A DNA stretch of 64,000 nt, from NCBI RefSeq assembly GCF_000218685.1, contig NW_006763302.1:726868-790867 (forward strand). The letters are read 5' to 3'. This document shows positions 14,359 through 61,245 of this stretch, in pieces. Position 1 is the stretch's first letter. The number at the start of each line of letters is the position of its first letter. The notes beneath the pieces were generated by a model that was not told the DNA's origin, did no database searches, and saw nothing but the letters and a program-made list of their open reading frames with translations. Position numbers and translations under genes: made by a program. The DNA comes from Serpula lacrymans var. lacrymans S7.9 (Eukaryota; Basidiomycota; Agaricomycetes; Boletales; Serpulaceae).

Positions 14359-14437
14359 ACCTGGCTGGGTACGAGCCTAGTTGGTGGATAAATTTTGTTG
14401 ACAAATTATGACATTTGTTTATAGTATGAGAAAACAT

Positions 14438-35574: not shown

Positions 35575-35713
35575 TGTTAGAATATACTCTGACATACCAA
35601 TACCCCATAGGATAATACCTCTGATTTGTAAGCCAATCCAGTATGCAGCAGCTATACTGTGTAAGACGTCCGTGGTTGCATGTCATGTTTAGGATCCTAC
35701 ATTGTATAACCTT

Positions 35714-35781
35714 GGCCATATAGCTCAATTGGTAGAGCAGCTGGCATATATCCAGAAGGTTCCAGGTTCAATCCCTGGTCT
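35714..35781 (+). tRNA. tRNA-like gene split by Gypsy-1 copy B; last 5 bases at 61,220-61,224
   Basis: The 73-base cloverleaf has acceptor GGCCATA pairing six of seven with TCTGGTC, D arm GCTC/GAGC, anticodon stem GCTGG/CCAGA with one mismatch, 5-base variable loop and T arm CCAGG/CCTGG. Box A (TAGCTCAATTGG) and box B (GGTTCAATCCC) fit the Pol III consensus. The loop CATATAT would give anticodon TAT (Ile) but has A instead of T at position 33. Copy B entered the 3' acceptor strand and duplicated GGTCT. It is embedded in the 228-bp LTR-like element rather than being a free-standing gene. Confidence 0.7.
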
Positions 35782-36198
35782 TGTTACGATAACACAATTT
35801 TCGGAACTTCCCTTTACTTTTATTCTCCGCTTTAACCTTGTACTTTAGCTTTCACACATGGTGCCACGCGGCACTTCCCCTTTTGTCCAAAACTCCTCTT
35901 TCTCGCGCCACATTGCCTTTCCTCTTATTATAGACACAATTCTCTCACACAGTGGAGCTGGCCATGCGGGCTAGGCCCCATGACACCATCAGCCACTGTC
36001 ACTATCAACTGTATAGTACATATGTACAAATAACTCTGTAGTAGTATATATACCCCAATAGATCCAGGAGACTCCTCAGCGAGTCCTCCTGTTGTTGACC
36101 AACAAACTCTCTGCAGCTCAAGGGGTATCCACTCCCTAATCATCTTCCTTATAGTGTGTTTCTGTGTGCGCCAGAGTAACTAACTCTTGGTTGTTACA
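35782..36198 (+). repeat. Gypsy-1B 5' LTR
   Basis: TGTTACGATAACAC to GGTTGTTACA, 417 bp. It contains TATATATA and, about 20 bases later, the hairpin CAGGAGACTCCTCAGC/GAGTCCTCCTG. Confidence 0.92.
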
Positions 36199-36200
36199 TT

Positions 36201-36210
36201 AGGACTCGCT
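36201..36210 (+). promoter_or_regulatory. Gypsy-1B primer-binding site, self-priming type
   Basis: AGGACTCGCT, two bases after the LTR, is exactly complementary to AGCGAGTCCT in the presumed 5' end of the transcript inside the LTR. No TGG-type tRNA primer site is present. Confidence 0.6.
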
Positions 36211-36411
36211 CTTCTACTCTCTCGCACATTTGTGCAAAAGTCTCACTGGGCACCCGGACTACAGGGTGAAGGAGATTTGGTTATTGGTTGGGAATATCCC
36301 GCATAGCAGATAGGTGCGCTCTTTGGGACAGCCTTGTAGTGCTTTGGGAGAAGAACCAAAACCTTTGATACGCGGCCTTCAGCGTTAAGGGGAGTACTTA
36401 GCTCAGCAGTC

Positions 36412-36556
36412 GGTGTGGAACCACTGTTGATTAGAACTAAAATACAAAACTTCACTTTCTCTTTCCTCTGACCAGGCCGGGCACTTGCCTGCGCCAGTTG
36501 GAGAAGGGTTGACAGCTTAACAAGCGGACCACCCCCTGACAACCGTTCGGACCAGG
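36412..36556 (+). other. Conserved leader module of Gypsy-1B
   Basis: From GGTGTGGAACCA to CCGTTCGGACC this non-coding leader closely matches the leaders of copy C (47,811-47,956) and of Gypsy-2 (57,829-57,970, minus). It may be a packaging or translation element. Confidence 0.6.
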
Positions 36557-36713
36557 GTTTCTTACGAATACTTTTTATATACTTTTCAAATACTATAGTG
36601 TGGGTAGTCGGAGATTGAGATCCGATACTCAGCTGGGAAGAGGTAGATCCGCAGATAGCAAGCGGGGACCCCCAGTTACATTTTTATTACTTTACAAAGA
36701 GAACAAGTCGACA

Positions 36714-37767
36714 TGTCATCGCAACAAGATATGAATGCTCTGCTGCACGCTATGCGTACGCAGATCACAACATTAACCTCGCAACTCGCCGAGCTGCAGA
36801 CGAACCCTCCTGCGGCAACCCCTCGGTAGAAAAAAAGTTCAACAAAAAAGTCGAAGTCGTCGCTGACCCTGGCACCTTTGACGGAGACAGAGCGCGATTC
36901 GCCGAGTGGTGGATCAAGCTCCAGATTTGGGTTAAGGCAAATTGGGATGCATTTGCCAACAATTTTGAGGTAGCCACTGCGGTGCTATCTTGACTAAAAG
37001 GACCTGTGGCGGGTCGATATGCCCAAGTTAGATTACAGGAGTGCTACACCGTGGGAGTGTGGCCAACCTGGGACAATCTCAAGAAGGAGATCAAAAAATA
37101 CTTCAAACCGCAAGCTGAGCGTGACTGGGCGCGTCAGCAAATCTGTTCCTTCAAGCAAGGAAACATGAGGACGGATGACTATGTTACCCGGTTCCTGGCC
37201 CTCTCCATCCAAGGAGGGCTTGGTAATGAACACGCAGTAGAACTGCTGGAGCGCAATGTGAACCCTCGCATTGCAGAACAGATCTACTTGCAGGATACAA
37301 GGAACAAGAACTTGGCCCTGGCGGCTGAGGAAGTACGAAGAATCGGTAGAGCCATGGAGCTTTACCAAATGCACCAAGGTGGCGGGTCCACCACCAAAAA
37401 CAACGAATCCCAGAGGCGCCCTGGGTCATCAAACCAACATAAACACTCTCACGGGTTCCAGCCGTTCGGGCTGCAACCAGGTCGGGGTGCTCCTATGGAT
37501 ATTGGCGCGGTCCAGGGCGGACAGACGCACAGATTCACCTGCTACAACTGTGGGCAGGAGGGGCACATAGCCCGAAAGTGTCCAAATGAAGCGCAGGCCG
37601 CTCAACAAAAAAATAACCAAGGGCGCCAGGTGCGCCAATTAGACTCTGAAAAACCGGACGATCGGCTCAATACTCTGGCCGGTCGTTCGTACAACGAAAT
37701 CCGAGCTTTCTTCTATGACCAACAGGTCAATGAAATGAAGGCTCAGGGAAAAGAGTTTGGAGCTTAG
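36714..37767 (+). pseudogene. gag: Gypsy-1B gag pseudogene
   Basis: This copy is homologous to the intact gag of copy C. One base is missing at codon 3, another in ACCCCTCGG near 36,820, and CGA has become TGA near 36,992. The last 253 codons (37,006-37,767) remain open, with the zinc knuckle CYNCGQEGHIARKC. The frameshift heptamer GGGAAAA at 37,746-37,752 is kept just before the stop. Confidence 0.85.
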
Positions 37768-37772
37768 ATCAC

Positions 37773-40273
37773 TTGGGTGCCTTCGCTCCACAAAACAATG
37801 AAGTAAACCACAACAAAGTGGCCCCTGCTCCGGGGTGTTGCACGAGCAATAAAGGAAAGACGGGGATGGCTCCCCAATTTGTAAATAGATTTTTAATTTT
37901 GTTATCTGAAGTATATACTTGTATAAAACATTGTAACTGTAATATTTATGATACTACCGCTGCACCAGCGTCTCCCTTGGAGCGTGGCCCCGGCGAGACA
38001 AACAATAGGGTGCTTGATTCTGGTAAAAATAAAATAGAAAAACATGTAACTTTCGATTCCCCTTTTTCTTCACTGGAGCCACCCTTTCCCAAAATCCCAA
38101 GGTTTGTGTTGATGCGCATGTATTTATTCCAAAAAGAGATCCGTCTAGACATTGGTGTGGAAAACCTTGCCCGAGGCATAGTACACCCAACCAGCGCACT
38201 GCTTGATTCAGGCGCTAACGGAATCTTCATAGATCAGGCCGGGGCGGAGAAAATTGGACTCCCCCTTGTAAAATTAGATGTATCTATTCCCGTCTATAAC
38301 ATTGATGGTACGCTTAACGCGGGTGGCTGCATCACGCACAAATGTTCTTTTGTTGTCGAATACCAAGGACACAGAGAACGAGTCACTGCCGAAGCTACCC
38401 AACTAGGGAAGATTAATTTAATCTTAGGCTGGACCTGGCTATTCAAACACAATCCTGAGATTGACTGGCAGACAGGGGTTGTCACATTGTCACGTTGCCC
38501 TCAGGAGTATGTAAACTTGGGTAAACCAAATCATGTCCGTCACAATGAGCGTCTAGAAAAGATAAGCGCTAGTCATAACATTTATGAGCTCAGATCTTTA
38601 GAAAAGATCGACGATGACGATGAGGAGGTAAAACCTGAAGAAGAGATTAAGAGGCTGGTACCTCCCAAGTACCATGACTTCTGGAAAGTCTTTTCAAAAC
38701 ATAAATCAGAGCGCTTCCCAGAGGCTAAGCCTTGGGACCATGCTATAGATTTGAAGGACACCTTCAAACCGAGAAAAGGACACATGATACCACTCTCTGC
38801 TCCAGAAAGAGATGAGGTATCAAGTTTCATAGACAAACAGCTTAGGAAGGGTTACATCAGACCTTCCAAAAGCCCTATGACGTCCCCGGTGTTCTTCATT
38901 CCTAAAAAAGATGGTAAGAAGCGTATGATTATGGACTATCGTTACGTGAATGAGCACACATGTAAAATGCGTAACCGCTGCCTTTGATCAGTCAGCTAGT
39001 AGACAAATTGGCTGGTGCCAAGATCTTGACAAAGATGGATCTCAGATGGGGGTACAATAATGTACGAATCAAAGAGACAGATGCTTGGAAGGCCGCATTC
39101 ACGTGCCACCGAGGATCCTTTGAACTCCTCGTTATGTTCTTTGGGTTGACCAATTCACCGGTGACCTTCCAAAGCATGATGAACGAGATTTTCGCGGATA
39201 TGGAAAATTGTGTCGTCATTTACATTGACAATTTATTAATATTTACGAAGTCGGACGATAAGGCTGAGCACGACAGGATCGTGCAAGAAGTCCTTCAACG
39301 CTTACAGGAACGGGACCTATTCTTCAAACCCGAAAAATGTAATTTCAAAGTGAAGGAAGTAGACTTCCTCGGTATGATCATAGGCCAGAACGGAATCAGG
39401 ATGGATCCTGAGAAAGTTCAAGCTATCTTGGACTGGCCAGAACCTACTCACATCAAAGGAGTTAGGGCCTTCCTTGGCTTAGGCAATTTCTACCGAAGGT
39501 TCATCAAAAACTTCACAAAAATCACAAGGCTGTTGAACGATCTCACTAAAAAGGATATTGTTTGGCACTGGGGCGCCAAAGAACAAGAAGCTTTTGATAA
39601 GCTTAAACAGGCGTTTACAATGGCGCCCATATTAGCATTTCCAGAATTAGACAAAGAGTTCCGGCTAGAAACCGACTCTTCTGATTTTGCTACTGGGGCT
39701 GTCTTGTCAATTAAATGCCCTGATGATTTTTGGAGGCCTTGCGCCTATTTATCACATAGTTTGTTGCCTACGGAGCGCAACTATCAAATTTACAACAAAG
39801 AGATGCTGGCCATTATTAGAGCTTTAGAGCACTAGCAGCACTACTTAGAAAGTGCTAGGCACCAATTTGAAATTTGGACCGATCATAAGAATCTGGAGTA
39901 TTTTATGACGGCCCAAGACTTGAACCGAAGACAGGCCTGCTACGCGGTATACTTGTCAAGGTTTAATTATAAATTAATTTATAAACCTGGAAGCTCTATG
40001 GGGAAAGCGGACACTTTGTCCAGAAGAGAGGATCATGCCAACGGCATTGAAGATGACAACAAAGGTGTCACCCTGATAGACCAATCAAGGGTTGCCAATG
40101 TTAGAATTGGGCAGGATTCTGATCTTCTGGAAGTCTTCAAGAAAGACATCTCCTCAGAAGAGAAGGCGCGCCTTGACAGCAATGAAAATTATTTATGGGA
40201 AGACGGGCTCTTCCATCTTAAAGACAAGATCTATGTGCCTGAGTCTGCAAGGATCAAGGCAATAGACAGACAT
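37773..40273 (+). pseudogene. pol: Gypsy-1B pol pseudogene, 5' part
   Basis: Protease (LLDSGANGIFID), RT and RNase H are recognisable. The frame is lost near 38,962 after NEHTCK and resumes at 38,984. The RT active site reads YIDN instead of YIDD. TGG has become TAG at about 39,833. The frame is then cut by Copia-1 at 40,273, within the codons before the integrase zinc motif. Confidence 0.88.
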
Positions 40274-40593
40274 TGTTAGTTTTGGTGATTCTGCACCTTT
40301 GTGCTACCTATATATTTTCATTCCTTTCTCTATCTATTCTTCTATCATTCACTATTGATTGTGTTCCCTATTATTTCGCCTTTATGGCTGCTTTGTTTAC
40401 CTTTGTTTACAAAACTTCGGACAGTACTGCAGAGTCCAATGCTTCCTATTCTCTAGTTACTCACATTGGACTCTAGGTACTGTATACCTGTCATACTCTC
40501 TAATAATATAGTTACTCACATTGGACTCTAGTTCCAGTCCCTGATTGCTCTCAGCAAGTGGCTAGACACTTCCTTCAAGCTTTGTTCTTAATA
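40274..40593 (+). repeat. Copia-1 5' LTR
   Basis: 320 bp, TGTTAGTTTTGG to GTTCTTAATA. It contains two direct copies of TAGTTACTCACATTGGACTC. Confidence 0.92.
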
Positions 40594-40605
40594 GGTTATG
40601 AGCCC
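40594..40605 (+). promoter_or_regulatory. Copia-1 primer-binding site
   Basis: GGTTATGAGCCC follows the LTR directly and is the same half-tRNA(iMet) site as in Copia-2. Here the ATG inside it opens only a 5-codon frame ending in TAG. Confidence 0.75.
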
Positions 40606-41759
40606 TGTGCTCTAGCCATCTTCCTGACCTCATATCTCACCATCCAAGTGTCCTACTGCTTATTCATCGTAACCATCGTCTTCTGGGACTCTTATTATCT
40701 CATCCATCACCTCAGATTACTCTGATCTCATCTTGATCTCCAACAACAACTCCTTGTTGCAAGTTACCCCCATTTCGGACCCTTTTTTGGTCTTATCTGC
40801 ACCATATCTCGCCCAATCCTTATCTGATCGTCCTGTAACTTCTACCATCGTCTACTACGGCCTAAATAACCCTAGGAGACCTGTCAGAGCGGTTGGATTT
40901 GAGCTGGATCTTTCTGTGAGCCTTCATCATCATTTGACCACCTTTTGGCCCCCTATTCCATATCTCCACATCCTGTGCTCGGATCTTGGCCCTATTTGAG
41001 CCATCTACTACCCTATACTATTGCACTTTACACCGTCAATTTGGGGGCAATCCATCCACTCCATCATCCTCTGTGAAGTTCGCATTTTTGGCACTTTCAC
41101 CCCTATTGGACTCCTATTGCATATCTCCACATCCTGTGCTTCACTTCTTGTGATATTTGGGCCATCTATTACTCTATAAAAACGTTCCCTATACCTCTGA
41201 TTTGGTGGCAATCCATCCATCTTATCTGTCTCTGCATCAATTTCGACTTTTTGCCCTATTTTTCGCTTTTTGGCATATCTGGTGTGTGCATAAAGCTCCA
41301 ATCTTCTCTACTCTGTCCATTATCAGATAGAACAAGCCTATAGACTGTGAAGCTCGCCTGCATTGCCTCAGTTTGCTGTTGCCTAGAGCCTCTCTCAGTC
41401 TGCGGTGTTTGGGGAGCTTAAGTCACTTCGTTGACTCATATACAAGCCCTATTAACCAACACTGTCTCGAGGCGATTTCTCTGTTAATATCAGTGTGGAA
41501 TTGAAAGGGGAACACAGGCGTAACCCTGTAGCAGCACTAGGAAGCCTTAGCACCCTCCTGGATCGCTTTTGGACACTTTTTGGACCCTATTTGGACCTAT
41601 CCTTGCGCTTTCTGACCCTCTCCATATCCTCTCTCTACCGCCTCACCATCTTATCTGCTCGCCTCCTACTGTTGCCCATTGTCTTTGCCACTATTCCATC
41701 GCCTATAGCCGTCTCCTACATCATTTATCATTGCTCTATTGTCTTATACAACACCCATC
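40606..41759 (+). other. Copia-1 long leader with an internal diverged repeat
   Basis: About 1.15 kb separates the primer site from Gag and has no gene. CATATCTCCACATCCTGTGCT and GGCAATCCATCCA each occur twice about 160-180 bp apart, in the same order, which indicates an old tandem duplication (about 40,960-41,290). Confidence 0.6.
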
Positions 41760-44700
41760 ATGTCTGACTCTGATCCCAAGTTCCATCCCTTGTCTGGCAC
41801 TAACTACCCCCAGTGGAGTGGTGAAATGCAAGCTTGGTTGATGACCAAGGGACTGTGGAGGCTCGTCTCTGGCGCTGAAAAGTGTCCTGGGACTGACACT
41901 GAAGCAATAGAGAAATGGGAGTTGAGAGCTGAAAAGGCTGCTGGTGCATTATATCTCAATGTCACCAAAGAGCAGCGCATCCATCTTGATGGCATCATTG
42001 ATGATCCTGTCAAGATCTAGGAGAAACTGGCAATTGTGCACATCTCTAAGAAGCCTGGGACGAGATTTAATGCCTATGACAACTTCTTCTCTATCAGAAA
42101 GAAGGAGGACGAGTCCCTACAGTCTCTCATGACCAGAATTGACGAAGGCATGCATCAGATTCAAAATCTTCGTCCTACTGGCTTCTCATTGTCTGAATTG
42201 GACGATGAATTGACATGCATGGCCATGATTAGGGCGCTTCCTGATCAATATGCCCACTTCACTTCATCTCTACTACTTCTGGGCACCTTGGACAAGACCC
42301 AGCTTAGGGATGCTTTCCTTGCTGAAGAGATCAATTGCCGTCGTCGTGCTGAAGTCGATTCTGCCTTGCATTCTTCGTCTACCACTGCCAATAGCACCTG
42401 CACCCATCCTAACTGCCATCATTGCAACCAATCCACCACCTCTACTCGCGTTCAGTGTGATTTCTGTGGTTTACTTGGTCATACCCAAGACAAATGCCAC
42501 AGATACATTGCTAGTCGCCAACAGGCAGTGGAGGGTGCTAAGAATCGCTACAAGCGTGGCAATAAGGCTCAGGCAGGCTCCAGCAACTCTCAGAATACCT
42601 CTCAGCAGCCCAAATCTTCGCCCAATCATGCCAATTCATCTACTGTGGTCACTGAATCAGCTGGGAATGCAAGTCTTCGTTCCATTCATCCCTCTGATCC
42701 TCATTGCCCTCTCCAACTTGATGCTGACATTGATTGGAATGCAGACACAGGCACCACTTCTCATATGACATCTCATCGTCATTGGATGCACCACTATACC
42801 CCATATTGTGTGCCAATCAAGCTGGCTGATCACACTGTTGTCTATTCAGCTGGTGTTGGTACTGTGGTGTTTAATCCTGTGATGAATGGCAAAGTGGCTA
42901 GGGCTGTGGAATTCTCTAGAGTGCTCCATGTACCAGATCTTCGAAATAATCTCCTCTCAGTCTTGTATTTAACTCGTCAAAGTGGTTTCAATGTCACTAT
43001 TTCGTCTCATTCCATGTCCTTTATGCTTGACAACACTCTCTTGTTCACTGCAACTATCAATGACAACAATGCAGCATTCCTTGATGGATCTACTGCTGCT
43101 TGTGTTGAATTGGGACATTTTACTGCGACTATACCACTTGATTTGATGCTCTGGCATCGCAGATTGGCTCACCACCATCATGTTGATGTCAAGAGACTGA
43201 TACAGAGAGATCTGGTCACTGGGCTTACACTAGAATCCAAGGCTACTCCTGATCCTGTCTGTGAACCGTGCTTGTCTGGCAAGATGCATGCCAATCCATT
43301 CCCCTCATCTGATACTCGCTCTGCTCATCCTTTGGACCTCATCCATTCTGATGTACACCAAGTCTCTTCCCCCACATTCTCTGGTTATCGCTACTGGGTC
43401 ACCTTCATTGACGATCACAGTCGATTCCGTGTTGTTGTGCCTCTCAAGGCCAAGTCAGATGTCTTTGATGCTTTCAAGAGATTCAAGGCTTATGCTGAGA
43501 CTCAATTGGAGCGTAAAATCAAGGCTCTGCGCGATGACAAAGGGGGAGAGTACATGTCCAAGGAATTTGAGCAATTCACAGATGACCATGGGATTGTCAG
43601 ACAGCATACCACCAGGAATCGTCCTCAGCAGAATGGTGTGGCAGAGCGAGCAAACAGACTTCTGACTGAGCGTATCACTGCCATGTTATCAGAGTCTGCA
43701 TTGCCTAACAGCTTCTGGGGTGAATGTCTGTCCGCTTTGGTGCATGTCTGGAACAGGTGTCCCACTGATGCAGTGGCCCATGCCACTCCATTTGAGTTGT
43801 GGTATGGATGCAAGCCTGACATGTCTCACCTTCGCGTTTGGGGCTGCACTGCCTATGTGCATGTGCAAAAGGACAAAAGAGGCATCTTTGGCTCTCATAT
43901 GGAGAAATGTGTGTTTATTGGTTACCCTGAGGGGTACAAGGGATGGAAATTCTACAATCCTACCACCAAGCGCACTGTTATCTCTGAGAGAGCTGATTTT
44001 GATGAGCGCTACTTCCCTGGCTTGAAGAGATCTTCTGACAATGTCCCACCTCCACCTCCCACTCCACCTTCACTATCCATGCCATTGGGCCTGATTGAGG
44101 ATGTCCCTGCACCAGGTCCAGGGGGAGATATGGGCCCACCAGCTGCACTTCAGCAGCCTCAGCCATTGCCTGACAATGGGCCTCATTTGGACCTTGATGC
44201 AAAACCACCTGTGAATCAACCTCCTGAGCTTCCAAATAACCCTCCTCATTGCTCACCTTCTCCTGACTTGCCTATTGCACTGAGACGCCCTGTAAGGGCT
44301 AGGAGACCACCTAGACCATGGTGGCTTCAACACAGACAACCTACTCCTGCCATTGAGAGTGATGACAGTGATTCTGAGGCAGTTGATGATGAAGTAGCAC
44401 ACTTTGGAGACTCTGCTGAGCCTAGGTTGTTTGCAGATGCAATGAAGCGTCCTGATGCAGATAAATGGAGAGAGGCAGCCATGGAAGAGCTTCAAGCTCA
44501 TGAGCGCAATGGTACTTGGTCACTAGTGGAACTACCTCCTGGAGTCAAGGCTATTGGTGGCAAGTGGGTCTTCAAGATCAAGTGCAACTCAGATGGCACT
44601 GTTGAGCGCTACAAGGCCAGATATGTGGCCAAAGGTTATAACCAGCGCCCTGGCTTTGATTTCCTCGAAATATTTGCACCTACTGTCCGCATATCATCCA

Positions 44701-45505
44701 TCAGAGTTGTCCTTGCCATTGCAGCCATCCACAACCTCCATTTGCGCTCCATTGACATTTCCCATGCATTCCTGAATGGAGTCATGGATGTCAAGGTCTA
44801 CATGCATCAGCCAGAGGGATTCCATCAGGGTCCTCGCAATTTTGTTTGCCAGTTGGACAAGGCCATCTATGGGACAAAGCAGGGAGGCAGAATGTGGAAC
44901 CAGAAGATGCACACTGTGCTTGAAAAACTCGGATTCAAGCGTACTTATTCAGACTCTGCCATCTATGTCTTTAACAGAGCTGATGTGCGCATTATCCTGC
45001 CTGTCTTTGTTGATGACATGACACTGGCATCCACTTCTACTTCTGCACTTGACCAAGCTGTCAAGGACCTCTCCCTGCACTTTAAGCTTCGTGATCTTGG
45101 CCCTACTTCTTACCTACTTGGCATTTCCATCACTAGAGACCTAAGTAATCGCACCATCTCCCTCTCCCAACATCAGTACACTCTGGACATTCTGGAGCGC
45201 TTTGGCATGAAGGACTGCAAGCCTATGTCCACTCCCATGGATCCTGGTTTGCGCCTCACCAAGGACATGTCTCCCAAAACATCCAGTGATGCTGCTTTGA
45301 TGAAGGACATTCCCTACCTTGCTGCTGTTGGTGCTCTGATGTATCTGGCCACTACCACTCGTCCTGACATTGCCTACACTGTTGGAGTCCTTGCCAGATA
45401 TAACTCTAATCCTGGTCTTACTCACTGGAGCGCTGTCAAGCACTTGTTCCGCTACTTGCAAGGCACCCTTGATCATTCCCTTGTCCTTGGTCCTGATCCC
45501 AATTC
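41760..45505 (+). pseudogene. gag-pol: Copia-1 Gag-Pol, 5' part (to early RNase H)
   Basis: The frame starts at ATG 41,760. Domains in order are Gag (GTNYPQWSGEMQAWL), zinc knuckle CDFCGLLGHTQDKC, protease DTGTTSHM, integrase zinc region HRRLAHHHHVD...CEPCLSGK with core DVHQ/DDKGGEYM, a proline-rich linker, and RT (FVDDMTLAS). One TAG at 42,018-42,020 replaces the Trp expected in VKIWEKL. The frame is otherwise open until Gypsy-2 interrupts it at 45,505. With the 3' part it totals 1,411 codons, in frame. It has thus only a single nonsense codon plus the insertion. Confidence 0.88.
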
Positions 45506-45889
45506 TGTGAAACCCTTATCCCCTATACCGAGTTAACGGAGGGATGAAGATTCAAATCAACAAGTAGCGTTACAAATAGCGATTGAAAATTAATCAACAA
45601 CTGAGGAAAGTATGTACATGATGGTCTACTATATATATGTTTCTGAAAGTCAGCCATGAGGCGCTGACTGAGCTAACATGCAGCAGCCATGAGGCGCTGA
45701 CTGATGTTCTTTGTAATGGTTCTAGACTCTTGTCACGTGATGGTCACGTGATCTGATATAACTATGTATTATGTTATCCGCGCTAAAGCAGCAGCTTAAC
45801 ATATCTTATCTGTCATGTGATTAGATATCAAAGCAAATGAAAAAAGGAAACTAGCGCTCAGACTAGCGCTTCTGGTTCAAGTCATGACA
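45506..45889 (-). repeat. Gypsy-2 3' LTR with a 33-bp internal tandem duplication
   Basis: 384 bp. CAGCCATGAGGCGCTGACTGA occurs twice here but once in the 5' LTR, which accounts for the 33-bp length difference. The pol stop codon lies inside this LTR, at 45,882-45,884. The polypurine tract AAGGAGGGGGTAA abuts it. Confidence 0.9.
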
Positions 45890-47592: not shown

Positions 47593-47594
47593 TT

Positions 47595-49182: not shown

Positions 49183-49187
49183 GTCAC

Positions 49188-52100: not shown

Positions 52101-53054
52101 TTCGCTAGCGAATTTACGAAAGAATTATGCCGGATGCTGGGCATCAAACCTAAATTATCCACGGTGTTCCATCCGCAAACCGATGGACAAACGGAGAGAC
52201 TCAACCAGGAGTTGAAACAGTATCTCCGGATATTTATTAATGACAGACAGACGGATTGGGCCAAGTGGCTAAAGATAGCCCAGTTCTCGTATAATATTAA
52301 ACAGTCGTCGGCTACAGGAAAGGCACCATTCGAGGTTACTAGATCGTACCTCCCCAGAATGGGTGTAGAACCTGGCAAAAGCAAAAACGAGGCTGCTGGG
52401 AGCATGGTCAAAGACATGAAGTCTGTCTTGGACGAAACGCGCAAAGCGCTATTTAAAACTGCGGAGCAGATGAAAGACAGGGCAGAGCGTAGACGCTCTA
52501 AGGCCCCTGATTACAAGGTCGGCGACCTGGTCTGGTTAGACACCGACCACTTGAAATTAAAAGACCGGCAGTCTAGAAAACTGACCGAAAAGTGGATTGG
52601 CCCTTACCGGATTAAGGAAGTCAAACCTAATGCGGTGGAGCTGGAACTCCCAAAACGAATGAGGGTGGTACCCACGGTTAACATTAGCCGTGTGAAACCC
52701 TACAAAGGACCGCTGCCGGGACAGCGCGTAGACCGGCCCGGTCCGGTAGTAGTCACCCAGGAAGGTGAAGAAGAATTCGAAGTCAAACGAGTGGTAGATG
52801 CACGCTTGAAGCGTGGAAAATTAGAGTTCCTGGTCCTATGGAAGGGCTATGGAGACGAGGACAGAACGTGGGAACCAGAAACCCATCTGGAAAACTCCCG
52901 CGACGCTGTTCGCGAATTTTATTCTAGGAATCCCTCAGCTCCCAGGAAGCTTAGAGGCATGGATTCAAACCTGTTTAATTCCCTCTTTCAACCTATGCCC
53001 GAAAATTTTACCACTACCTCCGAAATTTGGTCTCGCCTGGAAGTCGAGCCTTAG
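49188..53054 (+). CDS. pol: Gypsy-1C Pol polyprotein
   Basis: A 1,288-codon open frame is entered by -1 frameshifting from gag; the first listed codon is TTG, not an initiator. Domains are protease (LLDSGANGIFID, about residue 147), RT (FFIPKKDGKKRMIMDY), RNase H (LETDSSDFATGAV), integrase zinc region (HHDTPVAGHPG...CLRCAMAK, about 834-885), integrase core (VDFTTDL, SDRGPQF, LNQELKQY) and chromodomain (VDARLKRGKLEFLVLWKGYG, about 1,200). The RT active site reads YIVD at about residue 488 instead of YIDD, losing a metal-binding Asp. The chromodomain would tether integration to marked chromatin. The copy looks recent and intact except for this residue. Confidence 0.92.
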   Translation: MGALAPVKNEVNHNKVAPAPGCCTSNNGMTGMAPQFVNKFLNLLSEVCTCMKKCNCNIYDTTAAPASPLERGPGETNTRVLDSGETKIEKHVSFKIPSSPSSSLEPPFPEIPRRVLMRTYLFQKEIRLDVGVENLARGKVHSTSALLDSGANGIFIDQVWAEQIGLSLVKLETSIPVYNVDGTLNAGGCITHKCSFVVEYQGHRERVTAEATQLGKINLILGWTWLFKHNPEINWQTGVVTLSRCPQECVNLGKPNHVRHNERLEKLNASHVYELRSLEKIDDDDDEVKPEEEIKRLVPPEYHDFWKVFSKHKSEHFPEAKPWDHAIDLKDTFKPRKGHMIPLSAPERDEVSSFIDEQLRKGYIRPSKSPMTSPVFFIPKKDGKKRMIMDYRYVNEHTVKNAYPLPLISQLVDELAGAKILTKMDLRWGYNNIQIKEEDAWKAAFTCHRGSFEPLVMFFGLTNSPATFQSMMNEIFADMENCVVIYIVDLLIFTKSDDEAEHDKIVQEVLRRLQERDLFVKPEKCNFKVKEVDFLGMIIGQNGIRMNPEKVQAILEWPEPTRVKGVRAFLGLGNFYRRFIENFAKITRPLNDLTKKDLVWQWGAKEQEAFDKLKQAFTTAPILAFPELDKEFRLETDSSDFATGAVLSIKCPDDLWRPCAYLSHSLSPTERNYQIYDKEMLAIIRALEHWRHYLEGARHQFEIWTDHKNLEYFMTARDLNRRQARYAVYLSRFNYKLIHKPGSSMGKADALSRREDHANGIEDDNKGVTLIDQSRVANVRIGQDSALLEIFRKDISPEEKARLDGNENYLWKDRLFHFKNKIYVPESARIKAIDRHHDTPVAGHPGWQRTMELISRNYMWPGMVKDIQEYVKSCLRCAMAKNSHLPPAGKLMPNPIPAGPWQDISVDFTTDLPESNGYDSVMVVVDRFSKEVVFIPTNKTITAAGTADLFKDFVWSIHGLPETVISDRGPQFASEFTKELCRMLGIKPKLSTVFHPQTDGQTERLNQELKQYLRIFINDRQTDWAKWLKIAQFSYNIKQSSATGKAPFEVTRSYLPRMGVEPGKSKNEAAGSMVKDMKSVLDETRKALFKTAEQMKDRAERRRSKAPDYKVGDLVWLDTDHLKLKDRQSRKLTEKWIGPYRIKEVKPNAVELELPKRMRVVPTVNISRVKPYKGPLPGQRVDRPGPVVVTQEGEEEFEVKRVVDARLKRGKLEFLVLWKGYGDEDRTWEPETHLENSRDAVREFYSRNPSAPRKLRGMDSNLFNSLFQPMPENFTTTSEIWSRLEVEP

Positions 53055-53065
53055 AAGGGGGGTAG

Positions 53066-53455
53066 TGTTACGATAACACAATTTCCGGACATCTCCTTTC
53101 CTTTTTATTCTCCGCTTTAACCTTATACTTTAAATGCCACGCGGCATTTCCCTTTCCCGCGCCGCGTTGCCTTTCTTTTACTTTTGGACTTAACTCTCTC
53201 ACGCAGTGGAGCTGGCCATACGGGCTAGACCCTATGACATCATCAGCCACTGCCTTCATCAACTGTATAGTACACATGTACAAACAAACCTGTAGTAGTA
53301 TATATACCCCAATAGATCCAGGAGACTCCTCAGCGAGTCCTCCTGTTGTATACCAACTAACTCACTGCAGCCCAAGGGGTACCCACTCCCCATCTTCCAC
53401 TACCTTTATAGTGTGTTCCTGTGTGCGCCAGAGTAACTAACTCTTGGTCGTAACA
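53066..53455 (+). repeat. Gypsy-1C 3' LTR
   Basis: 390 bp, preceded by AGAAGGGGGGTAG. Differences from the 5' LTR are three single-base changes near the middle. Confidence 0.93.
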
Positions 53456-56374
53456 CCATGTAGGGCCACCAGTATTGTCGAGTGATTAGCTCCTTCGTCT
53501 TATATCTTCCTGGATGGCCTGCAATAACAGAGTCGTGGTTTCGTCGGATAATCTCTTCCCTTAACGCGGCATCTTTCGGTACATAGATCCTGCCTTTGAA
53601 TACTATGTGACCGTCTTCGTCTAGCCAACCATCCTCTCTCCTCTCTATCTTTCCTTTCATCTTTTTTATCAGTTCATCTACATTTCCTTTTCTCTTTGTA
53701 ATCCACTTTGAAATCTCTAATTCTTCCTCTTGACTATCTGCGATCTTTTGTCTTTGTTCTGGAGAGAGAGTCATTCTTACAAATAGTTTCTCATCCAGTA
53801 GTACGACGTCTTCGTTGTCGTTTTCTCCTTTGTTATGATCTGATCGCCTTGAGAGAAGATCTGCTTTTATATGCTTCCTTCCTGGCATATGATGTATCGT
53901 GAAATGATACTGGCTCAACTCTGTCATCCACCGCGCCTGTCTCCTATTCAACTTCTTGGGTTCTTTGAAATACAGCAGATTTTGATGATCTGTCCATATT
54001 TCAAATTCCTCTTCTGCGTCTATTAAGTAATGTCTCCATTCGTTAAGTGCTGTCATGATGGCAAGAAGTTCTTTGTCATAGATCTCGTAATTGCGTTCTG
54101 TGGGGTTTAACGCTTTGGAGAGGTATGCAATTGGCTTCCAGTCATCCTTTTGTCTTTGTGATAAGACAGCACCCATAGCGAAGTCACTACTATCTGCTTC
54201 TACTTTGTATTGGCCATGTGGTACTGGGAGAGCTAACACTGGGGCTGAAGCTACACGTTGTTTTAATGTGTTAAATGCTTCTTGTTGTTCATTTCCCCAA
54301 ATGAAGTCCTCTTTTCCCGTTAACTTGGTCAATGGTTTGGCTACTTCCCCGAAGCCCTCTATGAACCTTCGATAGAAATTTACAAATCCCAAGAATGCTT
54401 GTATATCCTTCTTATTTTTGCATTCTGGCCATTTGCTAATTCCTTCTACTTTTACCGGATCCATGCGAATTTCGTTTTCTGAGATGATCAGTCCCAGGTA
54501 TTCCACTTCTGTCTGTTCGAAATCGCATTTTTCTGGTTTAAGGTAGAGATGATTCTTTCTTAGGATTTCTAACACACGTCGCGTCGTTGCTCGGTGCATT
54601 TCTATATCCTTTGTGAATATCATGATATCATCTAGATATATGATTACTAATCCTTCATCTATCAACTCTTTGAAAAGCGTGTTCATCATCATTTGGAACG
54701 TGGCTGGGGAATTTGTCAGTCCGAAGAACATGACTAATGGTTCGAATAATCCCCGGTTTGTCCTAAATGCCGCTTTATGCTCGTCTCCTTCTCTCATTCG
54801 GATATTGTTATATCCCCATCTTACATCCAACTTTGTGAAGTATTTTGCTCCACTCAATTTGTCTACTAGTTCTCCGATCAACGGAAGTGGATATCTGTTT
54901 TTGATAGTGATATCGTTTAGCTTCCTATAATCTTGAACTGGTCTCAACTTCCCGTCTTTCTTTTTAATGAAGAAGAATGGTGATGCAAATGGGGACTTCG
55001 ATGGTCTTATTCGTCCCGATTCTAGATTCTCCTTTAGGAACGCATCTAGCTCTTCTTGCTCTCCTCTTGCCAATGGGTAGATCTTGCAATCTAGGGAGTG
55101 ATCTCCCAGTATTAGTTCGATTGCGTGATCCCATTGCCTTCTTTCAGGTAACGTGTCAAACTCCTTTTTATCAAATACGTCTTTGTATTGATGAAGGTGT
55201 TTTGGCACTATATTTTCGAATCCTCCTTCTTTTCGATCTTTGCCTGCGGCTTCTGCTAGCTTCTGTGCCATTGTGCCTTGGGCTCTGATATGGTAATATT
55301 GATCGTCGATCGTGGCATCTTCGAAATTATGGAGATTCACCTGTATCATCCTCTCGTCTTCTCTTAGTTCCTCAAAGAATATTTCCGGATCCTCCTCTGG
55401 ATCAGAGATTCGGATTCTCGGTCTACATTCTTCAGGACATCTTTCAAAGGTCAACTTCGATTCTTTCCAGTCTATTTTAGGATTATGTTTGTTCAACCAC
55501 TCATGTCCTAGAAACATTTTTCCGTTACCCAGATTGGTTACGGCAAGATGTATCTTCTCGACGTGTTCGTCGATTTCCATGAGCAGTATTACAAATTCAT
55601 TGATGGCTCCGTTTTTATTAAGAGTTCCATCTGCATTATAGACTGGAATAGGTCTCGGTATCTTCCTTGTCTCATATCTTTTGTCTTTCACAAATTGGGA
55701 GTCGATGCAACTCCCCGTGCATCCACTGTCCAATAGTGCTTTGACTGTTTCTGATTGGAGAGTATCTAATGTAGTAAGCTTACATTTTACGTTCATTTGA
55801 TTGCCTTGGGTGCCCCTAATGTACTTTTTTGGGGAGGCAATTTCTATGATCGCTTGTATAACTTCTACTTTTGGTAACCGGTTGATTTCTTTTATCGTTT
55901 CCCGGGTTACTTCTCTCGCTCTCTTTTTATGTGTCCAGGCACTCAGAATCCCAATGGATCTTTCTTCCTTTTGGTCTCTTAGCCTGTCTACTACCCATTC
56001 TGGGGTCCAGACTTCTGTTCTAGGTTTTTTTAGAGGGGTTCCTGACCTCTCTTCTACAGTCTCTGCTGCGTTTTTCTCCGTAGAGCTCGCCGCATCGGGT
56101 GTAGGAATCTTAGGTTCTATCGTAAATGCTGCGCTTTTTAGTGATTCGCCCGCCGTCGAAACTGCGGATGTCTTATCACTCTGCGCCGCTTTTACTCTAG
56201 TGGCATCTTTTTCGTTTTGGATTTCTTTCTTTGTCTGAGTGGAAATAGTTTTATTGTTATCCGCGCTAAAGCTGCAGCTTAACAATTCTGAGTCATATGT
56301 ATCTACAGTTAAAGGAAGAAATCGATTCGAAACGTCTTTAGGCTCAGTCGGTCGATGCGGTACCGCTGGCCTCT
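53456..56374 (-). pseudogene. pol: Gypsy-2 Pol, 5' part (protease to integrase zinc region)
   Basis: Protease (LLDSGCTGSCID), RT (VIIYLDDIMIF), RNase H (VEADSSDFAMGAV) and the start of the integrase HHCC region (RNHDSVIAGHPGRYKTKEL) follow in one open frame. An ATG-less N-terminal stretch is reached by frameshifting from gag. Gypsy-1 copy C entered at CCATG, between YWWPY and the Cys pair of the zinc motif. No other break is visible in this part. Confidence 0.88.
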
Positions 56375-57493
56375 TTAAAAACCCTCAAGGAGTTTTTCCC
56401 TTTCCTCTTTCGTCATCTTTTCTAGGAACTCTCGGACATTAAATTGTGGCTTCCTTTTTTGTGCGTCTTTGCACTCGAAGCTTCTATGTCCCTTTTCTCC
56501 GCATCGGTAGCATCGTCCTTCAGTGCGGAACTTTGCTTTGTCTACCTCCATTCTTTCTCCGCTACCGGTATAGGTATATCCGGTTCCGTCTCTCTTCTTC
56601 TCTCCTTCTTTCTTTTGTTCCGAATAGGGTTTCTTCCCAGTATCGGAACCTTTCTTCTCTTTTTCTCTCTCTCTCCAAATATAGTCTATTCTAATAAGTT
56701 CCCTTTTCCACTCTTGGTAATCTCTGGGAATATGCCCGCCGTAGATCACCCTATCTACTAGCGGCTTGTTCATGTTCCTTCTGAGTAGAGATATTAGGAA
56801 CTCTTCGTTTATCCTATTTGTATATCCCGCCCATCTTTTCTTTTCCTCAAATCTTTCAAAGAAGGCTTGGGCGGTTTCATTGCCCTGTCTCAGGGTCAAT
56901 ATTTCGTTCTTGGCAGTTTCTTTTTCAAAGCTGTCCTTGAACCTTTCTTCCATTTTGTCAGCAAAATACGGCCAACTTCCGTATGTGTTTGTAATATCGA
57001 GCCCCAGCTGTTGGGCGTCGACTTGGTTCTCTAGCCAATCGGTCCGGAAGGCCGCGGCTTCTCCTTCTTTCATAAAAGATAGCACAAAGCTTATCTTTTT
57101 TTGGTCGTCTCTGAAATATACGGCATCGTCTTCGAAATGTAGTAATAAGGACTCTCTAAAGGCCCTATACTTTTTCTTATCTCCGGAGAAGTTCTCGGGT
57201 TTCTCCAGTGCCGTTCTACTTCTTTCCACCTTTTCTGGAGGTGGCGGTGTCTGTTTCTTTAATTTTCTTTGCAAGACGCTCACTTCTTCGAGCGCCTCGT
57301 CTAGCTGCGATTGGTAATGCATTTGTGTTTGTCTTATCGCTTTTTCTACTTCTTGTTTTACGTATGCTTCCAATCGCGCTTCTTTCGGGGGGGGAGTGTC
57401 TATTCTGGGTAATGCGTCCATCATTTCCCTGGTAAATGCGCTGTCCGTGCTGTTGGATGGCTCGGGCAGATCGCGATATTCTAGGTTGGACAT
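56375..57493 (-). CDS. gag: Gypsy-2 Gag
   Basis: This 372-residue frame starts at ATG 57,493. It has a coiled-coil-prone N-terminal part (EAYVKQEVEKAIRQTQ), a capsid-like middle (RFKDSFEKETAKNEILTLRQ) and a zinc knuckle (CYRCGEKGHRSFEC) near the C-terminus. It is open throughout. An overlapping upstream frame (57,653-57,216) in another register starts 160 bases earlier and may be a uORF or a displaced N-terminus. The stop TAA follows directly on a frameshift heptamer leading into pol. Confidence 0.85.
   Translation of the reverse strand: MSNLEYRDLPEPSNSTDSAFTREMMDALPRIDTPPPKEARLEAYVKQEVEKAIRQTQMHYQSQLDEALEEVSVLQRKLKKQTPPPPEKVERSRTALEKPENFSGDKKKYRAFRESLLLHFEDDAVYFRDDQKKISFVLSFMKEGEAAAFRTDWLENQVDAQQLGLDITNTYGSWPYFADKMEERFKDSFEKETAKNEILTLRQGNETAQAFFERFEEKKRWAGYTNRINEEFLISLLRRNMNKPLVDRVIYGGHIPRDYQEWKRELIRIDYIWREREKEKKGSDTGKKPYSEQKKEGEKKRDGTGYTYTGSGERMEVDKAKFRTEGRCYRCGEKGHRSFECKDAQKRKPQFNVREFLEKMTKEEREKLLEGF
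56378..56384 (-). promoter_or_regulatory. Gypsy-2 -1 frameshift heptamer
   Basis: In the gag frame the end reads GAG GGT TTT TAA, so G GGT TTT is a canonical X XXY YYZ slippery site immediately before the stop. The -1 frame is open from here into pol (KRPAVPHRPTEPKDVSNRFL). Confidence 0.7.
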
Positions 57494-57828
57494 TGAATGT
57501 GAGTTGGGGAGGAGGGGGAGTTTCGGTTTTGATCAAAGGGGATGGGATTCTGATGGGTTCTATTTCTGGTAAGGGGAATTGCCCTTTGAATACGTAATCT
57601 TGAGAGTAAATGTGTTGCTCTCCGATCCAAATGTAAAAATCTCTACTAAGCATAGAAAGGAGTTCACCAGTGATAAGCTGGATTGATACACCGCTTTCTA
57701 AGATCCTAGTAGTCTATCTGTTCTCTTTGAGTCAAAGTGGTCCTCTTCAGCCCACTACTGACAATGTATGTATGGTGACTATTTTTGTATTTTACGAATT
57801 TTATGTAAAAGGTATAGTGATAAATTGG

Positions 57829-57970
57829 GGTCCGAACGGTTGTCCCAATGTGACCAGCTTATTAAGCTTTCAGTCCTTCTCCCGACTGGCGGACGCAAAT
57901 GCGCGGCCTGGTCAGAGGAAATTGAAAATGAAACTATGTAAAACCGAGAAAATCTCAATGGTTCCACACC
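57829..57970 (-). other. Gypsy-2 leader segment conserved with Gypsy-1
   Basis: On the minus strand it runs from GGTGTGGAACCATTGAG through CCTCTGACCAGGCCGCGCA to ACAACCGTTCGGACC. It is clearly similar to 36,412-36,556 and 47,811-47,956 although the two families differ strongly in gag and pol. It is non-coding. Confidence 0.65.
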
Positions 57971-57998
57971 AAAGAGATTATTGTGATATAAAATGTAT

Positions 57999-58208
57999 TT
58001 ACAGGGGGATGGTTACGAACGAGTCTTGGGATGAGGAGGGGGAGACGTTGGCAGGGAAAAATGATAAAATGGTGTCGGGGCGAGTGGGTAGGTGATGAAG
58101 TGGGAGGGTAGTGGTAGTTTGGTTTGAGCGTTTGAGCAGGTTTAGGATGAGGAAGATAATGATGACGGTGACGATGATGGTGGTTAGGATTGTTGCTGTT
58201 ATATTCAT
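57999..58208 (-). CDS. Small membrane-type ORF in the Gypsy-2 leader
   Basis: A 69-residue frame begins 28 bases after the 5' LTR. Its N-terminus (MNITATILTTIIVTVIIIFL) is a strong hydrophobic segment followed by a basic stretch (LLKRSNQ) and a Ser/Pro-rich tail. It could be a signal-anchored accessory protein or a chance upstream ORF. No homologue is recognised. Confidence 0.3.
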   Translation of the reverse strand: MNITATILTTIIVTVIIIFLILNLLKRSNQTTTTLPLHHLPTRPDTILSFFPANVSPSSSQDSFVTIPL

Positions 58209-58236
58209 AAACGGTACTTGTGGCAGTTGTTGATTG

Positions 58237-58587
58237 TGTAAAACCCTTATCCCCTATACCGAGTTAACGGAGGGGTGAAGATTCAAATCAACAAGTAGCG
58301 TTACAAATAGCGATTGAGAATTAATCAACAACTGAGGAAAGTATGTACATGATGGTCTACTATATATATGTTTCTGAAAGTCAGCCATGAGGCGCTGACT
58401 GATGTTCTTTGTAATGGTTCTAGACTCTTGTCACGTGATGGTCACGTGATCTGATATAACTATGTATTATGTTATCCGCGCTAAAGCAGCAGCTTAACAT
58501 ATCTTATCTGTCATGTGATTAGATATCAAAGCAAATGAAAAAAGGAAACTAGCGCTCAGACTAGCGCTTCTGGTTCAAGTCGTGACA
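58237..58587 (-). repeat. Gypsy-2 5' LTR
   Basis: 351 bp; on the minus strand it begins TGTCACGACTTGAACC and ends GGGTTTTACA. It contains CACGTGATGGTCACGTG, two overlapping CACGTG palindromes. Confidence 0.9.
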
Positions 58588-58592
58588 AATTC

Positions 58593-59079
58593 CACTGAAC
58601 TCTTCACCACTTTCTCTGATGCTGATCATGGTGGTGACAAGGACTCTGGTCGTTCTACTGGTGCCTATATTGTCAAGATGGGATCTGGTGCTGTCTCCTG
58701 GAGCTCCAAGCTTCAGAACATTGTTGCTCTGTCCACCACTGAAGCAGAATATATTGCTGCTGTTGAGGCTGGCAAAGAGATCTGCTGGATGCGAAATTTG
58801 TTGAAGGAAATGGGCTATCCTATCACCTCTCCTTCCACCCTTCATATTGACACCCAATCTGCCATCTCTGTATCCAAGAACCCTGAGCACCATGGTCGGA
58901 TGAAAAACCTTGATCTGCGATGGCATTGGTTGAGAGATGTTGTTGACTCTGGGAAGATTGCTCCTACCTTTGTTCCCACTGCTGAAATGCCTGCAGACTT
59001 GTTGACCAAGGCTCTTGCCAAGCCTAAAGTGGAAGTGTTCAGGAAGACGATGGGACTTATTAGATCAGGGGGGAGCTAA
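58593..59079 (+). pseudogene. gag-pol: Copia-1 Gag-Pol, 3' part (RNase H)
   Basis: This piece continues the frame after the AATTC duplication: TELFTTFSDADHGGDKDSGR, then LSTTEAEYIAAVEAGKEI, typical copia RNase H. It ends at TAA 59,077-59,079, close to the polypurine tract. Confidence 0.88.
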
Positions 59080-59108
59080 TGCTTGGGAGGTGCAGCATCA
59101 GGGGGGAG

Positions 59109-59428
59109 TGTTAGTTTTGGTGATTCTGCACCTTTGTGCTACCTATATATTTTCATTCCTTTCTCTATCTATTCTTCTATCATTCACTATTGATTGTGTT
59201 CCCTATTATTTCGCCTTTATGGCTGCTTTGTTTACCTTTGTTTACAAAACTTCGGACAGTACTGCAGAGTCCAATGCTTCCTATTCTCTAGTTACTCACA
59301 TTGGACTCTAGGTACTGTATACCTGTCATACTCTCTAATAATATAGTTACTCACATTGGACTCTAGTTCCAGTCCCTGATTGCTCTCAGCAAGTGGCTAG
59401 ACACTTCCTTCAAGCTTTGTTCTTAATA
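59109..59428 (+). repeat. Copia-1 3' LTR
   Basis: 320 bp, with no difference seen from the 5' LTR. Confidence 0.92.
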
Positions 59429-59433
59429 GACAT

Positions 59434-60786
59434 CACAACACTCCAGTGGCTGGGCACCCTGGGTGGCAACAAACATTGGAGTTGATCTCCAGAAACTACC
59501 TGTGGCCTGGCATGGTCAAAGACGTACAGGAATATGTAAAATACTGTCTGAGATGTGCCATGGCAAAGAATTCTCATCAACCGCCAGCCGGTAAACTTAT
59601 GCCAAATCCAATACCAGCTGGTCCCTGGCAGGATATATCGGTTGATTTCACAACGGATCTGCCCGAGTCAAAAGGGTATGATTCAGTAATGGTGGTAGTA
59701 GATCGCTTCTCCAAAGAAGTAGTATTCATACCCACCAATAAAACCATTACCGCTGCAGGTACGGCAGATCTATTTAAAGATTTCATATGGTCTATCCATG
59801 GGTTACCAGAAACGGTGATCTCCGATAGAGGACCACAATTCGCTAGCGAATTTACGAAAGAACTATGCAAGATGCTGGGCATCAAACCTAAATTATCAAT
59901 GGTGTTCCATCCGCAAACTGATGGACAAACGGAGAGACTCAACCAGGAGTTGAAACAATATCTCTGGATATTTATTAATGACAGGCAGACGGATTGGGCC
60001 AAATGGCTAAAGATAGCCCAGTTCTCATATAACATCAAACAGTCGTCGGCTACAGAAAAGGCACCATTCGAGGTTACTAGATCGTACCTCCCCAGAATGG
60101 GTGTAGAACCTGGTAAAAGCAAGAATGAGGCTGCTGGGAACATGGCCAAGGACATGAAGGCTGTCTTGGACGAAACACGCAAGACGCTATTTAAAACTGC
60201 AGAGCAGATGAAAGACAGGGCAGAGTGTAGATGCTCTAAGGCCCCTGACTACAAGGTCGGCGACCTGGTCTGGTTAGATACCGACCACTTAAAATTAAAA
60301 GATCGGCAGTCTAGAAAACTGACCGAAAAGTGGATTGGCCCTTACCAGATTAAGGAAGTCAAACCCAACGCGGTGGAGCTGGAACTCCCAAAACGAATGA
60401 GGGTAGTACCCACGGTCAATATAAGCCGTGTGAAACCCTACAAAGGGCCGCTGCCGGGACAGCGTGTAGACCAGCCCGGACTGGTTGTAGTCACCCAGGA
60501 AGGTGAGTTCAAAGTTGAACAGGTAGTGGATGCACGCTTGAAGCGTGGTAAATTAGAATTCCTAGTCCTATGGAAGGGCTATGGAGACGAGGACAGAACG
60601 TGGGAACCAGAAGCCTATCTGGACAATTCCCGCGATGCTGTTCGCAAATTTTATTCTAAGAATCCCTCAGCTCCTAGGAAGCTTAGAGGCATGGATGAAA
60701 ATCTTTTTATTTCTCTTTTTCAACCTATGCCCGAAAATTTTATCACTACCTCCGGTATTTGGTCTCGCCTGGAAGTCGAGCCTTAG
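59434..60786 (+). pseudogene. pol: Gypsy-1B pol pseudogene, 3' part (integrase and chromodomain)
   Basis: The frame resumes after the second GACAT with HNTPVAGHPGWQ and runs open through the integrase zinc and core motifs (CLRCAMAK, VDFTTDLPE, SDRGPQFAS) and a chromodomain (VDARLKRGKLEFLVLWKGYG) to TAG at 60,784-60,786. A two-codon deletion before the chromodomain (QEGEFKVEQ) is the only visible length change. Confidence 0.88.
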
Positions 60787-60797
60787 AAGGGGGGTAG

Positions 60798-61214
60798 TGT
60801 TACGATAACACAATTTTCAGACCTTCCCTTTACTTTTATTCTCCGCTTTAACCTTGTACTTTAGCTTTCACACATGGTGCCACGCGGCACTTCCCCTTTT
60901 GTCCAAAACTCCTCTTTCTCGCGCCACATTGCCTTTCTTCTTATTATAGACACAACTCTCTCACACAGTGGAGCTGGCCATGCGGGCTAGGCCCCATGAC
61001 ATCATCAGCCACTGTCACTATCAACTGTATAGTACATATGTACAAATAACTCTGTAGTAGTATATATACCCCAATAGATCCAGGAGACTCCTCAGCGAGT
61101 CCTCCTGTTGTTAACCAACAAACTCTCTGCAGCTCAAGGGGTAACCACTCCCTAATCATCTTCCTTATAGTGTGTTTCTGTGTGTGCCAGAGTAACTAAC
61201 TCTTGGTTATTACA
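60798..61214 (+). repeat. Gypsy-1B 3' LTR
   Basis: 417 bp, preceded by the polypurine tract AGAAGGGGGGTAG and ending GGTTATTACA. Confidence 0.92.
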
Positions 61215-61245
61215 GGTCTGGTCATTATCCAATTTTATCATATTG

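Follow-up and report, generated by a model that had tools for sequence, protein, structure and literature searches.

A tRNA-bearing solo long terminal repeat in Serpula lacrymans points to a Helenus-type miniature retrotransposon with a probable Ty1/copia partner

The stretch of DNA analysed here (hereafter, the window) spans 64,000 nucleotides of Serpula lacrymans var. lacrymans S7.9 (contig NW_006763302.1, positions 726,868 to 790,867). It contains two separated segments, 35575-35781 and 61220-61240, that together make up a single 228-bp long terminal repeat (LTR), termed LTR-B, matching other genomic copies from end to end. The repeat starts with TGTTAG, ends with TATCA and is flanked by the 5-bp target site duplication (TSD) TATTG, in agreement with a preliminary description of this DNA that had proposed, from the letters alone, a 228-bp LTR-like element with TG and CA ends and a 5-bp duplication. 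Its two segments are set apart by a nested insertion of ~25 kb, of Ty3/gypsy type, with an LTR of ~417 bp whose 3' copy lies at ~60798-61214 (Table 1). The analyses presented below lead us to conclude, with good though not full confidence, that this feature is a solo LTR of a terminal-repeat retrotransposon in miniature (TRIM) of the Helenus type, probably mobilised by Ty1/copia elements of family A and its subfamily A2, with which it would have formed hybrids via strand transfer.

The element is multicopy. In the searched genome (42.6 Mb, 29 contigs), 140 sites lie within two mismatches of the 5' 21-mer of LTR-B, and the reversed control returned 0; the possibility, raised in advance, that the sequence might be single copy is hence discarded. 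Copies were taken mainly from 100 listed places with a perfect match to the 5' 21-mer and from 30 loci cut out after a DNA search, so that diverged copies are under-sampled; six of the 104 loci targeted gave no copy of at least 150 bp. The 99 distinct copies of at least 150 bp comprise 62 solo full-length LTRs with a perfect 5-bp TSD, five with a TSD matching at four of five letters, nine without a TSD, 15 lying beside a primer site or polypurine tract, and eight partial copies. Perfect TSDs are present in 62/75 solo full-length copies, a count that excludes the partial copies, those adjacent to a primer site or polypurine tract and one further copy (L153) beside a changed polypurine tract. 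When the flanks were re-dealt among copies (10,000 permutations), the mean was 1.0 and the maximum 6, and the concern that copies might not end at TG and CA with a 5-bp duplication was likewise dispelled. The median divergence of the copies from the per-column majority is 1.3%, and ATCA is the ending of 88 of the 91 full copies; the other three, all joined to A2 sequence, end in AACA. Most of the copies read are now solo LTRs.

A full element with two such LTRs, which the preliminary description had suggested looking for, was found at locus L034. Here, two LTR-B copies (2956-3183 and 3294-3521), identical at 221/228 positions, enclose a 110-bp interior, for a total of 566 bp flanked by the TSD CAATA. 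The short interior fits a non-coding TRIM, and the preliminary description had noted no coding capacity. The interior opens with the primer site GGTTATGAGCCCTG directly after the LTR and closes in the polypurine tract GATCAGGAGGGAG before the next LTR. This primer site is perfectly complementary to 14 nt of the anticodon-arm pattern of the initiator methionine tRNA (tRNA-iMet), a pattern that the genome matches exactly at two places. This plain two-LTR form accounts for only 1/11 of the TRIM interiors found. The two-LTR copy, with its primer site and polypurine tract, supports the interpretation of LTR-B as the tRNA-bearing terminal repeat of a miniature, non-autonomous LTR retrotransposon, and with it the initial idea of a fungal analogue of Cassandra.

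The tRNA-like stretch occupies LTR-B positions 140-212 (73 nt), where a sense tRNA structure of 73 bases with A and B boxes near the 3' end had been correctly anticipated. Rfam family RF00005 (cut-off 29 bits) gave nine matches in eight other loci, eight of them at 52.5-53.3 bits and one at 37.5, and matched the interrupted copy of the window at 35714-35786 with 45.5 bits, including five terminal nt that belong to the insertion. ARAGORN reported a tRNA in 28/30 fetched loci (27 Thr-TGT, one Ile-TAT) and in 80/90 full-length LTR-B copies (79 Thr(TGT), one Ile(TAT)), and reported none in the window. With this many copies called as tRNA genes, automatic annotation would count many false ones. Sense A and B boxes, 34 nt apart in the printed copy, were detected in 84/90 full-length copies, against 2/2000 letter shuffles of one copy scanned on either strand, and were absent from the one LTR of family A (LTR-A) tested. 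A pattern search for a host tRNA-Thr(UGU) as donor gave only tRNA-Thr(AGT), at four places, no search having been made with the tRNA part alone.

Canonical tRNAs carry U at position 33. The LTR-B cloverleaf has A at this position and two non-standard stem pairs, so that a working tRNA is unlikely; a functional tRNA gene was considered for the stretch and put aside on these grounds. A T4 run near the LTR-B end is found in 87/90 copies. Of the host tRNA genes looked at, 8/10 are followed by a longer first T run (T5 or more), so that the T4 run looks like a weak terminator. Outside the first 21 LTR-B columns, which were left out of the test, variants common to at least four of the 90 copies number two in the 73 tRNA columns versus 15 in the 134 other columns (Fisher p 0.036), and private changes are equally common inside and outside the tRNA (67 versus 107, p 0.38). 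The tRNA stretch hence seems to be protected as long as copies replicate and to be released from constraint once they have inserted. From the A and B boxes and the fewer subfamily changes in the tRNA columns, we infer that this part of LTR-B would act as an RNA polymerase III (Pol III) promoter. It has also to be considered that the stretch might be no promoter at all and be kept instead for RNA packaging, tRNA mimicry or the choice of integration site, since the whole cloverleaf, which ARAGORN still recognises in most full copies, exceeds what the two boxes would need. We regard this as improbable: the boxes themselves are retained in nearly all full copies, the non-standard pairs and A33 make a working tRNA unlikely, and in other families of Helenus it is the boxes that are reported to be conserved (Kojima 2024, PMC10886601).

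The candidate partner, family A, has a 320-bp LTR and an open frame of 1410 aa in which six Pfam families are recognised, including Retrotran_gag_2, rve and RVT_2, which correspond to gag, integrase and reverse-transcriptase domains. Among the 33 scored copies (the best 33 of 1268 candidates), all at 96% protein identity or above, 13 lack a stop, and in 4/4 A copies inspected the LTR-A end (~130 bp fetched) precedes the primer site and LTR-A follows the interior. The LTR of subfamily A2 measures 334 bp and is ~81% like LTR-A. Family A and the TRIM have the primer site in common and a nearly identical polypurine tract; their LTRs differ, with the first letters TGTTAG being common to LTR-A and LTR-B. 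Protein relatives of family A, 40-60% identical and in some cases aligned to only a part of it, occur in the Agaricomycetes Sparassis, Taiwanofungus, Agaricus, Mycena, Sanghuangporus and Trametes. The 93 places listed with the iMet primer site comprise 13 behind LTR-B, picked by hand, and 80 behind other LTR-like ends (mostly TAGTTTTATTA), one of the latter being the LTR-A2 end in L033. The window itself harbours a family A copy broken by other elements, with LTR-A at 40274-40593 and 59109-59428 and a coding piece at 42036-45536.

Direct junctions between the two kinds of element point to their association. The 13 LTR-B/primer-site junctions lead into the A leader in five cases, into the A2 leader in five and into the TRIM interior in three, and the 11 TRIM interiors are preceded by LTR-A or LTR-A2 in eight cases and by LTR-B, or a piece of it, in three. 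Seven hybrids were read at both ends, and matching 5-bp flanks were observed in five of them (Table 1). In the two five-part composites, L031 and L145, the outer LTR-B pairs are identical at 227/228 and 225/228 positions, respectively. Copies of LTR-B joined to the A2 leader end in AACA, like LTR-A2 (5/5), and those joined to the A leader end in ATCA (5/5). At L146 (268-396), a chimeric LTR has a left part of A2 sequence and a right part that is LTR-B from position 178 onwards, with the switch at a common CCAGAAG within the tRNA-like stretch, and L053 passes from LTR-B to the A leader at 14 common letters. These hybrids suggest that TRIM and copia RNAs may have been reverse-transcribed together, and so would name the likely mobilising partner. 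Incomplete or rearranged sites were also recorded (L033, L039, L049, L053, L091, L146, L152, L153 and L158), and at L052 (1501-1740) LTR-B directly abuts, with no spacer, letters resembling the start of an LTR-A-type LTR.

Table 1. Features of the interrupted LTR-B copy in the window and structure of the TRIM-copia hybrids read at both ends.
Feature	Position or locus	Strand	Remarks
5' TSD copy of LTR-B, TATTG	35570-35574		flank reading
LTR-B positions 1-207	35575-35781	+	matched over 1-207 by 40/40 scored genomic places (best 40 of 149 candidates)
tRNA-like stretch, LTR positions 140-207	35714-35781	+	Rfam; final 5 nt at 61220-61224
A box, fits TRGYNNARNNG	35721-35731	+	pattern match
B box, fits GWTCRANNC	35766-35774	+	pattern match
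5' TSD copy of nested insertion, GGTCT	35777-35781		flank reading
Nested insertion, Ty3/gypsy-type, containing further LTR elements; outside LTR-B	35782-61214		type from open reading frame (ORF) letters alone
Ty1/copia family A copy, probable mobilising partner of LTR-B TRIM	40274-59428	+	TSD GACAT
3' TSD copy of nested insertion, GGTCT	61215-61219		flank reading
LTR-B positions 208-228	61220-61240	+	tRNA-like end 61220-61224; T4 run 61233-61236
3' TSD copy of LTR-B, TATTG	61241-61245		flank reading
LTR-B, A2 interior, LTR-A2	L032		TSD CATCC
LTR-B, A2 interior, LTR-A2	L147/L156		TSD GTATC; read at two ends only
LTR-A2, TRIM interior, LTR-B	L026		TSD TAACT
LTR-A2, TRIM interior, LTR-B	L016		no TSD
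LTR-B, A interior, LTR-A, TRIM interior, LTR-B	L031		6153 bp; TSD TAAGG
LTR-B, A interior, LTR-A, TRIM interior, LTR-B	L145		6313 bp; TSD AAAAA
LTR-A, TRIM interior, LTR-B, A interior, shortened LTR-A	L048/L155		no TSD; read at two ends only

Ordinary reverse transcription makes both LTRs of an element alike, and two unrelated LTRs on one element are therefore not expected from it. In the mechanism that we propose, Pol III would start at the tRNA-like part of LTR-B, and the T4 run, as a weak terminator, would let it continue through the interior. The resulting TRIM RNA would be packaged and copied by A/A2 proteins, with reverse transcription primed by tRNA-iMet at the primer site common to both elements, and integrase would insert the TRIM complementary DNA (cDNA), giving 5-bp TSDs. 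Hybrids would arise as by-products of strand transfer between co-packaged TRIM and A/A2 RNAs at this common site. If a plus-strand LTR-B that ends in the primer site pairs with an A2 minus strand at the same site, LTR-B, A2 interior and LTR-A2 would result; the reverse annealing would yield LTR-A2, TRIM interior and LTR-B; and a minus strand begun on TRIM RNA could generate the five-part composites if, on reaching the primer site, it jumped to an A RNA at its 5' end. Under this model the switch is expected at the primer site or in the last letters of the LTR, and the AACA and ATCA endings agree with it. We give even odds to the specific proposition that a Helenus element and its copia partner were copied in the same particle, repeatedly swapping ends via the common tRNA-iMet primer site.

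Several points weigh against this interpretation. Recombination of cDNA or of one-LTR circles would yield the same junctions as strand transfer, and mobilisation in trans by family A is a putative role. Two of the hybrids (L016 and L048/L155) lack matching flanks, the AAAAA flank of L145 is of low complexity, and L147/L156 and L048/L155 were read at their ends only. The same primer site stands behind other LTR-like ends at ~79 further places, and A/A2 is possibly one of several partners. As regards the promoter, the T4 run is shorter than the corresponding run of most host tRNA genes looked at, the Fisher p of 0.036 is modest, the copies share history, and both boxes might be vestigial.

The hybrids could also have formed after integration, by DNA recombination or gene conversion among genomic copies, whether neighbouring or dispersed, in which case they would have no bearing on common particles. 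The abundance of solo LTRs reveals very frequent LTR-LTR recombination in this genome, nested copies are present, and two of the seven hybrids have no matching flanks, all of which fit such an origin. The other five, however, keep identical 5-bp flanks, and their LTR termini are exact at either end; matching flanks have been used as a sign that separates reverse-transcription products from those of DNA recombination (Sabot and Schulman 2007, PMC1950507). For conversion to replace a whole outer LTR, its tract would furthermore have to stop precisely at the tip of the LTR, at the common TGTTAG, and we therefore deem a post-integration origin unlikely.

A different reading of the composites is that their five-part order (LTR-B, A interior, LTR-A, TRIM interior, LTR-B) represents an autonomous copia lineage of 6 kb, to which LTR-B would belong and of which the 566-bp form would be a deletion derivative. 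L031 and L145 do present near-identical outer LTRs and matching flanks, one of them has the open 1410-aa frame with its six Pfam families, and by LTR-A the nearest to L031 among the six compared is L145 (98.11%, next 97.79%). By the leader, however, L031 and L145 are each nearer to the ordinary A copy L069 (97.61 and 98.46, respectively) than to each other (97.31), and by LTR-A both L066 and L068 (99.06) are nearer to L145 than L031 is. The composite, moreover, encloses a complete LTR-A, and LTR-A borders the interior on both sides in the four A copies inspected, and a separate 6-kb lineage is thus quite unlikely. The idea, prompted by L031, that LTR-B is a plain autonomous copia LTR was dropped, LTR-A being found inside L031 and flanking the four ordinary A copies. 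Finally, a short interspersed nuclear element (SINE) with TG and CA ends by chance, as its tRNA-like part and short length might suggest, has a negligible probability: the tRNA lies at 140-212 of 228 rather than forming a 5' head and there is no A-rich or repeat tail, as the preliminary description had already argued, TSDs are fixed at 5 bp rather than variable, and the two-LTR copy with primer site and polypurine tract refutes this reading.

Beyond LTR-B, the window resembles a nest of Ty3/gypsy-type elements (1207-3780, 37006-39835, 47203-53384 and 53406-57493, as read from ORF letters), with an inner element in which 47203-47521 and 53066-53384 resemble a pair of LTRs. Another tRNA-bearing repeat, dispersed in the genome and 196 bp long, with ends TATCACAAC...TTTGTCA, is represented by a piece at 14399-14499 on the minus strand, by loci L073-L078 and L129-L144, and by 125 genomic sites with at most two mismatches. 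It shows 5-bp TSDs in 18/21 whole copies read, A and B boxes 34 nt apart in the copy tested and a degenerate anticodon loop. At L077, ~86 bp separate two copies, the second of which is preceded by a purine-rich stretch. The 196-bp repeat is perhaps a second Helenus-type family, for which a search for an iMet-type primer site beside the repeat, in the orientation TG...TA, gave 0 sites. At L024 a copy of the 196-bp repeat is interrupted by LTR-B, and at L132/L158 the 196-bp repeat conversely interrupts LTR-B (TSD ACCTT); this reciprocal nesting indicates that both families were active at overlapping times.

The upkeep of TRIM dependence on an autonomous element is described as not known (Kojima 2024, PMC10886601). 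Hybrids with TSDs indicate the partner by joined sequence and not by similarity of short motifs, and the question of TRIM dependence hence becomes testable. An element whose two LTRs are unrelated cannot be reduced to a solo LTR, which may be the reason for the excess of hybrids over plain TRIMs in the set of interiors found. Helenus lengths of 311-1263 bp have been tied to Pol III processivity, an argument on transcription that would limit such elements to ~1.3 kb (Kojima 2024, PMC10886601); the 6-kb composites need not be transcribed from LTR-B and do not per se contradict this limit. If our interpretation is true, the hybrids constitute a direct genomic record of an autonomous element mobilising a Pol III-type TRIM, and a tRNA-bearing LTR can land on a full-length coding element with a 6-kb gag-pol interior.

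Exchange of LTRs between autonomous and non-autonomous elements has reportedly been described in soybean by Du et al. in 2010, and we know of no tRNA-bearing LTR among those soybean elements. Template switching with TSDs has been documented in one-family complexes, and VejuL and BARE2 were proposed to derive from switching between different RNAs (Sabot and Schulman 2007, PMC1950507). Those complexes resemble the composites described here in having three LTRs, two interiors, outer TSDs and matching outer LTRs, and differ in that each involves one family, whereas the junction seen here, at a primer site common to both, links a TRIM to a coding copia element whose LTRs differ from its own. Cassandra (PMC7215508) likewise places a small-RNA gene promoter within a TRIM LTR and forms tandem arrays with common LTRs, but it is a plant element, its autonomous partners are called unknown, and it carries 5S rRNA, whereas in LTR-B Rfam gives tRNA alone.

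Although the preliminary description named no matching family, this kind of element had already been named Helenus, a fungal TRIM with a tRNA-like sequence in its LTR (Kojima 2024, PMC10886601). With a fungal analogue of Cassandra thus already named, the novelty is smaller than first supposed. Helenus-copia hybrids were not found in the available part of that work, nor in a literature search of partial coverage, and in this respect the system described here differs. The same source presents Pol III transcription of Helenus without experimental validation, and reports that the LTRs of Helenus and its partner are not alike and that tRNA-Thr-like Helenus elements occur in fungi, with Agaricomycetes among the hosts. 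The LTR-B TRIM has the same anatomy as these fungal members, a likeness drawn from description and not from sequence (PMC10886601). It comprises a tRNA-like sequence with A and B boxes in the LTR (84/90), a two-LTR form of less than 1000 bp with a non-coding interior (L034), a primer site and polypurine tract, the 5-bp TSD of fungal members (62/75) and, through family A, a primer site in common with a Copia element of the same genome. LTR-B is hence an LTR of Helenus type, an already described kind.

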